64,000 nt of DNA from Laspinema olomoucense D3b. Lineage in GTDB: Bacteria; Cyanobacteriota; Cyanobacteriia; Cyanobacteriales; Laspinemataceae. Position numbers and translations under genes: made by a program. Below are positions 18,116 through 57,457 of this stretch, in pieces. The notes under the pieces were generated by a model. It had not been told where the DNA came from. It ran no database searches and saw only the letters and a list, made by a program, of their open reading frames with translations. Positions within the stretch are counted from its first letter, which is position 1, and every line of letters begins with the position of its first letter. The stretch covers positions 124,001 to 188,000 of the forward strand of contig NZ_JAMXFA010000007.1 in assembly GCF_025370785.1 (NCBI RefSeq), written 5' to 3'.

Positions 18116-18149
18116 GAGGAGGGGCGATTCACGAATCGCCCCTCCTTTT
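18116..18149 (+). terminator. Rho-independent terminator of the SDR gene
   Basis: A perfect 13 bp GC-rich stem (AGGAGGGGCGATT / AATCGCCCCTCCT) with a four-base loop, followed by TTTT. Confidence 0.8.
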
Positions 18150-45137: not shown

Positions 45138-45141
45138 GTTT

Positions 45142-45199
45142 GTAAAAACCCGCACCCTGAAGGGTGGGGCTACAGGAACAAAGCCCGCCTGCGCGGGCT
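45142..45199. repeat. ~58 bp palindromic element, copy 1 (intergenic)
   Basis: GTAAAAACCCGCACCC, a GGGTGGGGCTA segment, GGAACAAAGCCCGCC and GCGCGGGCT appear in the same order, reverse-complemented, at 56842-56899. It contains two hairpins (CACCC/GGGTG and AGCCCGC/GCGGGCT). It lies just after the clpC stop codon. Confidence 0.7.
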
Positions 45200-45277
45200 A
45201 AGATCGAACCAACTTGAGACAACTGCATGGAGTATTAAGGGTTAAACGACTGCTCCTGATACCCATTTCAAAGCCTC

Positions 45278-56773: not shown

Positions 56774-57457
56774 ATGACTTCGGAACGCGCTAAAAATCAC
56801 CTAATACCAAATTCGGTTATTAAAAGTCGTTTTCATGGAGTAGCTGGCGTCGGCAGGCTTTGTCCGTATAGCCCAACCCCATCGGGTGCGGGTTTTTACC
56901 TCTTTTTGCTCCTAGTTGCTTTAATTCCCCTGTGGACGAGAGTTGGGTTAACTCAAACTCCCGCGCCAGCATTAGAAGCAGTAGAGGACATGGTACCACC
57001 GGACGAGCGCGAACAACCGCCTTTAGAACTGCAGCAAATGCCTCCGGAAAAACCCCCCTTACAGTTCCTAACCATCCCACCGGAAATCGATCCTGCCCAA
57101 TTTAATATCACCACGAATTACACCATTTCCCAAAGTGGGGTAACGGTTCCTTCCTTATGGTGGGTTAACGAACAGTTTGGTTATAGACTGGTCGAGAACT
57201 GGTTAGCTTACCCCCGGAATGGAGGGGATACAGGCACGGTGGATGTGATTGTTAACCGTCAAAGCTGGGGTTTGCTGGATTACCTGCAACGCTATGAGTT
57301 TCTGAATCATTTCGGGCAAGTGGGGAGGGATTACGGGTACAACATCCGGGTGTTTACTCGTCAGCAAAAACTTTTGGGCAGTTATACCTGTACCTCCGAA
57401 CCGATCGCCTGCAACTTGTGGTTGGATTCCGAGGAATTAGACAGCCAAGCGCCGTAA
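56774..57457 (+). CDS. Hypothetical exported protein with an embedded repeat
   Basis: The 227-residue protein is not recognised. Its N-terminal region (residues about 21-42, GVAGVGRLCPYSPTPSGAGF) is encoded by a ~58 bp palindromic element (see 56842-56899). It is followed by a hydrophobic segment LFLLLVALIPLW and TQTPAPA, which look like a signal-peptide core. The mature part (about 70-227) has LWWVNEQFGYRLVENWLAYP and QSWGLLDYLQRYEFLNHFG. The true start may be later; a TTG at 56907 is in frame. Confidence concerns the reading frame rather than a function. Confidence 0.7.
   Translation: MTSERAKNHLIPNSVIKSRFHGVAGVGRLCPYSPTPSGAGFYLFLLLVALIPLWTRVGLTQTPAPALEAVEDMVPPDEREQPPLELQQMPPEKPPLQFLTIPPEIDPAQFNITTNYTISQSGVTVPSLWWVNEQFGYRLVENWLAYPRNGGDTGTVDVIVNRQSWGLLDYLQRYEFLNHFGQVGRDYGYNIRVFTRQQKLLGSYTCTSEPIACNLWLDSEELDSQAP
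56842..56899. repeat. ~58 bp palindromic element, copy 2 (inside a coding region)
   Basis: Read on the minus strand it begins GTAAAAACCCGCACCC and continues GGGCTATACGGACAAAGCCTGCC, matching the element at 45142-45199 at about 80%. It lies in frame inside the 56774 gene. Confidence 0.75.

Follow-up and report, generated by a model that had tools for sequence, protein, structure and literature searches.

The window, the whole 64,000-nucleotide stretch of DNA that was analysed, lies on contig C86 of the Laspinema genome G000 (7.02 Mb in 104 contigs). It contains a gene whose 5' end includes a piece of a dispersed palindromic repeat, along with a second copy of the same repeat after clpC, a gene name taken over from the earlier note. 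The features are as follows:

56774 to 57457, + strand: host gene (open reading frame call) for 227 aa, with a basic start, the insert, a hydrophobic stretch and a C-terminal part found across related cyanobacteria.
56774 to 56803, + strand: codons 1-10 (MTSERAKNHL) ahead of the insert, with an ATG common to all eight Laspinema genomes.
56804 to 56899, + strand: whole captured piece, left arm plus core, 96 bp or codons 11-42 (32 codons), the phase counted from the ATG.
56804 to 56825, + strand: left terminal-repeat-like arm, ATACCAAATTCGGTTATTAAAA, with one mismatch to the left terminal motif in the alignment of copies.
56841 to 56899, + strand: core, a weakened two-hairpin unit, codons 23-42, VAGVGRLCPYSPTPSGAGFY.
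56900 to 56959, + strand: hydrophobic stretch, LFLLLVALIPLWTRVGLTQT, a putative signal-peptide core or anchor.
45141 to 45201, - strand: intergenic core copy after clpC, hairpins intact.

The host protein matched no Pfam or NCBIfam family, and its AlphaFold model has a mean pLDDT of 47. Matches to the gene occur in 52 of 59 genomes (G000 counted), and all seven congeners (G001-G007) have an orthologue. Judging by the sequence, the ATG at 56774 is the probable start, and a signal peptide is likewise probable. No right terminal arm was seen beside the core at this gene, nor was a terminator-like site on the gene's strand between 56600 and 57000.

The earlier note had reported the same repeat at 56842-56899 and after clpC (45142-45199), and this was borne out. 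The two copies, on opposite strands, are 78% identical across 59 bp (E 8e-8 in the set searched), and both are placed, at 56840-56900 and 45141-45201, by a covariance model whose 49 underlying copies include them. The genome-wide search that the note proposed recovered with this model at least 150 core copies in G000, both window copies among them and most lying between genes. Aligning the 49 copies gives a two-hairpin core with the consensus TTAGCCTGCGnAGGCAGGCTTTGTCCGTATAGCCCCACCCTTnAGGGTGCGGGTTTTT, in which one of seven predicted pairs changed on both sides (U-A in 29/49, C-G in 15/49). The note's extent of about 58 bp and 20 residues describes the core well (codons 23-42) but not the whole piece, as repeat-related DNA starts at 56804 and spans 96 bp or 32 codons. 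Likewise, the core does belong to a palindromic, two-hairpin family, but the window gene's copy is itself the poorer palindrome (RNA fold z of -1.24 vs -4.02 for the 45142 copy). Its second-hairpin loop, CATC at 56880-56883, resembles the rare GATC type more than the common TTNA type of the orthologues, hinting at conversion; of 150 copies whose loop could be read, just two others, L044 and L047, have the GATC type.

Many copies carry arms beside the core. Allowing up to two mismatches, the left-arm motif matches 87 sites across the genome, while a reversed-pattern control gave 0. Among 169 copies of at least 45 bp in the fetched stretches, 25 have both arms, 43 only the left, 19 only the right and 82 neither; 87/169 thus have an arm beside the core vs 3/167 at control positions 500 bp off. 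In the two-armed layout, imperfect inverted arms, ATACCAAATCCGGTT.../...AACCGGATTCCGTAT, flank the two-hairpin core, and the length is 117-123 bp in 22 of 23 measured copies and 112 bp in the remaining one (L074 and L107 were left out of the 25). By eye, TA stands at both ends in 21 of the 25, an observation on filled sites alone. The repeat is therefore short, is present in high copy number (at least 150), has no gene of its own and ends in imperfect terminal inverted repeats, as MITEs do; it is probably a mobile, MITE-like element of about 120 bp. None of eight DDE_3 places had both arms at up to 3 mismatches of 15, and no transposase was recognised in a by-eye look at the open reading frames of at least 110 aa in seven arm pairs 0.8-1.9 kb apart in the fetched stretches. 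A dedicated open frame within the element was considered and rejected, the two-armed copies being open in the window gene's frame in 5/23 vs 16% for shuffles.

The family is abundant throughout the genus, with 84, at least 150, 97, at least 150, at least 151, 115 and 106 scored matches to the covariance model in G001-G007, respectively. Six genomes of four sister genera had 1, 1, 2, 0, 0 and 0 matches. Among ten genomes from other families, G023 had 45, G014 16, G016 5 and G015 3, these being weaker matches (best E 1.6e-7 to 1.2e-14), and the remaining six had none. In total, 15 of the 24 genomes searched, G000 counted, had a match at 1e-5; the family is not strictly limited to the genus.

Within G000, nhmmer gave 181 matches in 115 fetched stretches plus the window, and placement was scored for the 171 of at least 40 bp (a few stretches overlap, and duplicates were kept). 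With a simple hexamer gene caller, 164 of them lie between genes (112 co-directional, 37 convergent, 14 divergent and 1 without both neighbours), an upper bound since any gene that a copy interrupts would be called as two, and 7 lie inside six predicted genes. To the same caller, 75% of the window is coding, so the copies avoid genes. The window gene's own copy was scored as intergenic because the caller chose TTG 56906 as the start. A six-frame look found 14 open or gene-ending cases, including those inside predicted genes. In two genes, at L044 and L142, the frame stops at the element's first codon, and four further cases are open at the N-terminus (L123, two in L116, and L155).

The same leader is in different states in the eight strains. 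G000, G001, G004 and G005 have a full core, G002 has the core start with a second repeat after it, G007 retains just the core end (GAGFY), and the element is absent in G003 and G006, two of the seven congeners. The second repeat, a palindrome of the GGCGATTCGCGAATCGCC type, stands in phase behind the element in G001, G002 and G005, though diverged in G001; its 18-mer has six exact copies in the fetched G000 sequence. A near-exact copy of this type, with one mismatch, lies in the window at 18123-18140. From the ATG to VGLTQT there are 56, 85, 65, 40, 58, 82, 40 and 45 codons in G000-G007, and the spacer 5' of the ATG measures 154, 239, 234, 148, 154, 144, 147 and 145 nt, giving all three remainders modulo 3.

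In G003 and G006, 16 other residues occupy the insert position; they are unlike the element by alignment, and neither genome offers a clean empty site. A decayed element in these two leaders was considered and rejected, since 754-892 of 1000 shuffles score as well (246-728 against the second repeat). The earlier note expected that removal would leave a normal n-region. The 96-bp piece is in phase (the 58-bp core alone could not leave in phase because it is not a multiple of three), but the element-free congeners hold those 16 residues there instead, and an ancestral n-region of the kind expected is not what they show. A four-gene tree, with supports of 38-43 at key nodes and outgroups of one gene each on very long branches, does not decide whether they lost the element or never had one: the best tree has an AU p of 0.6, and a tree with G003 and G006 as sister to the rest has 0.4. 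Outside the genus, the insert motifs were not found in the leaders of any of the 22 fetched homologues (L017-L038), so the finding that the note named as fatal to an insertion, the same peptide in distant homologues, did not appear among them. Local scores to the 32-residue insert are 15-31 for other genera, 93-106 for the three full-core congeners and 175 for the insert itself, the top other-genus score (31, L026) being about that of the G007 remnant (30).

Taken together, it is quite likely that a MITE-like element inserted at this gene and that a piece of it was kept in frame as a translated leader extension. The element would have entered the 5' end by transposition, in the ancestor of the genus or early within it. 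As the left arm plus core is divisible by three and open in the gene's frame, 32 extra residues would be translated; a short basic start precedes them, and the hydrophobic stretch of what is probably a signal peptide or anchor follows. The insert may persist because this position tolerates changes in length and sequence. It would have drifted, with weaker hairpins in G000, been trimmed in some strains and, in others, been joined by a further palindromic repeat, with the phase kept throughout; in-frame copies may survive as a relaxed spacer in tolerant sites such as the n-region of a signal peptide. The suggestion in the earlier note that an insertion lengthened the n-region without breaking the frame is supported, with an open frame in eight of eight genomes and no element in two of seven congeners. 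A bolder version, which we regard as possible but doubtful, is that the n-region is a recurrent landing and turnover zone, where two repeat families entered in phase within the genus and their remains were trimmed and replaced, which would make repeat capture the way in which leader length evolves.

The codon positions speak to how the insert has been kept. Between G000 and G004, 22 of 96 insert sites differ, at codon positions 8/5/9, while the 498 nt from VGLTQT on differ at 14/8/30. The other five full-core pairs give 10/5/9, 8/6/7, 2/0/2, 4/3/5 and 3/3/3 in the insert, and none of the six pairs has a marked third-position excess there. Given this lack of bias, in counts that are small, the insert appears to be free of amino-acid constraint beyond the frame, and the captured stretch reads less as a constrained peptide than as a tolerated, near-neutral spacer. 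The hexamer coding score per codon is -0.67 over codons 8-44 and +0.18 beyond them. Like the insert, the first 10 codons have no third-position bias (68/53/50 summed pairwise differences), as in noncoding DNA, so this test cannot split a translated but unconstrained stretch from an untranslated one.

An untranslated stretch is what the strongest alternative proposes: the element would sit in the 5' untranslated region, the protein would start at TTG 56906 or a later codon, and the open frame upstream would be incidental. Besides the missing bias in the insert and first 10 codons, this would agree with the gene caller's start at TTG 56906, after the insert. An internal ATG (MRKSCLL...) is well placed in G002 and G005, whose start may lie after the repeats. 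However, frame 0 is free of stops from the shared ATG in eight of eight genomes, and in every one of them each of the other two forward frames is broken by 2-7 stops; as the strains share ancestry, these are not eight independent events. In G004 and G007, no ATG, GTG or TTG follows the element before the hydrophobic stretch is over, and a start at TTG 56906 would leave no basic residue ahead of that stretch. This open-frame evidence, by our reading of the eight sequences, does separate the two possibilities, and we consider an untranslated element improbable.

It is very unlikely that the captured peptide has been domesticated, for targeting, for regulation by leader length or for translational regulation via its hairpins. 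The frame has been kept, several lineages retain the insert, and an oxidoreductase-like gene retains a captured peptide at one site in four congeners, but at the leader the insert lacks codon-position bias, the hairpins of the window copy are weakened, and G003 and G006 manage without it. That the stretch is ancestral protein sequence, resembling the repeat by chance or having given birth to it, is hardly credible: some form of it is present in six of the eight genus genomes, but the peptide is missing in all 22 other-genus homologues, and across the rest of the genome at least 150 copies, mostly at predicted intergenic positions, share the core and often the arms.

In support of capture, in-frame copies are also present in five unrelated genes of G000, and several of them are missing from orthologues:

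L058, Suc_Fer-like gene (PF06999): 30-residue insert, with three of three close orthologues lacking it.
L052, gene of no family: insert in G000, related insert in G002, none in the other six.
L110, DnaB, inside a LAGLIDADG intein: variable region, where G003 has no insert and G001 and G004 have different sequence.
L124, SLH/OprB porin, after the leader: shared by G000 and five orthologues, changed in G004 by an additional insertion, none in G001.
L148, TPR protein: two tandem copies.

Orthologues were compared for the first four, and in all five the element is read antisense, unlike in the window gene. The L110 peptide (L110:397-3039, contig C33) lies in the endonuclease region of the DnaB intein, and DnaB of G002 and G005 has no intein at that site. 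In the oxidoreductase-like gene (L208-L211; named by eye), an element-derived peptide occupies one site in G002, G004, G005 and G006, apparently an old capture. In one G002 gene, a two-armed element lies ahead of a hydrophobic leader, and the gene's own start could lie just 3' of the element. The 16 congener stretches give no capture rate, as most were picked for open-looking frames. At L106:2793-3383, an element just 5' of a conserved start lengthens the open frame; in-frame capture was rejected there, as the orthologues share the downstream Met (MERGLMWLPL) and in six of seven the 45 codons before it contain a stop, and this element is probably not translated.

Capture of palindromic repeats in frame is already on record in Rickettsia and, with MITEs, in several other bacteria. 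The Rickettsia palindromic elements (RPEs) are mobile, 105-146 bp long and found both in frame in unrelated conserved genes and between genes (PMC2229807, PMC10969869), and nearly half of those in R. conorii are inside genes (PMC10969869). The Laspinema repeat resembles them in behaviour, being a palindromic repeat in frame in unrelated genes (the window gene, L058, L052, L110, L124 and L148), and we do not file it as an RPE. It differs in host, in having only 7/171 copies in predicted genes, set against the R. conorii share, and in its lack of a dedicated open frame (5/23 two-armed copies open in the window gene's frame). In enterobacteria, fusions with the MITEs YPAL/RU-2 and ERIC are read in frame, and the copy in YPO1552 is part of a predicted signal peptide (PMC2229807). 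For these, a novel exported protein has been suggested, whereas in Laspinema the leader of a protein family present across related cyanobacteria would have been lengthened. RUP of Streptococcus pneumoniae, 107 bp long and intergenic, has TA ends and terminal inverted repeats, and its movement is attributed to an IS630-type transposase (PMC2229807). The Laspinema repeat shares the TA ends, the terminal inverted repeats and the intergenic sites; RUP has stops in all six frames. No partner transposase of the Laspinema repeat emerged among the DDE_3 places and arm pairs checked. REP classes, cyanobacterial ones among them, are also on record (PMC3733652).

Among the open-licence titles listed, none concerned in-frame captures in Laspinema's genus. 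Small dispersed repeats of cyanobacteria described by Elhai in 2008 are reportedly mobile, and the Nezha MITE is said to be another small mobile repeat of cyanobacteria; both would resemble the Laspinema repeat in these respects. Set against the Rickettsia, enterobacterial and pneumococcal elements, the Laspinema case adds an instance of an evolutionary process that is already known, with a different repeat family and a different host. What it offers is a free-living cyanobacterial genus with one site in different states in eight genomes, which allows a direct comparison of insertion, drift, trimming and second capture and a test of whether such an insert is neutral. In homologues of the window gene from another genus of the family, the leader carries GKLDPRLCGDIHGKK (L021 and L022 at about 1363, + strand; L023 at 1984-2058, - strand), possibly derived from a further repeat.
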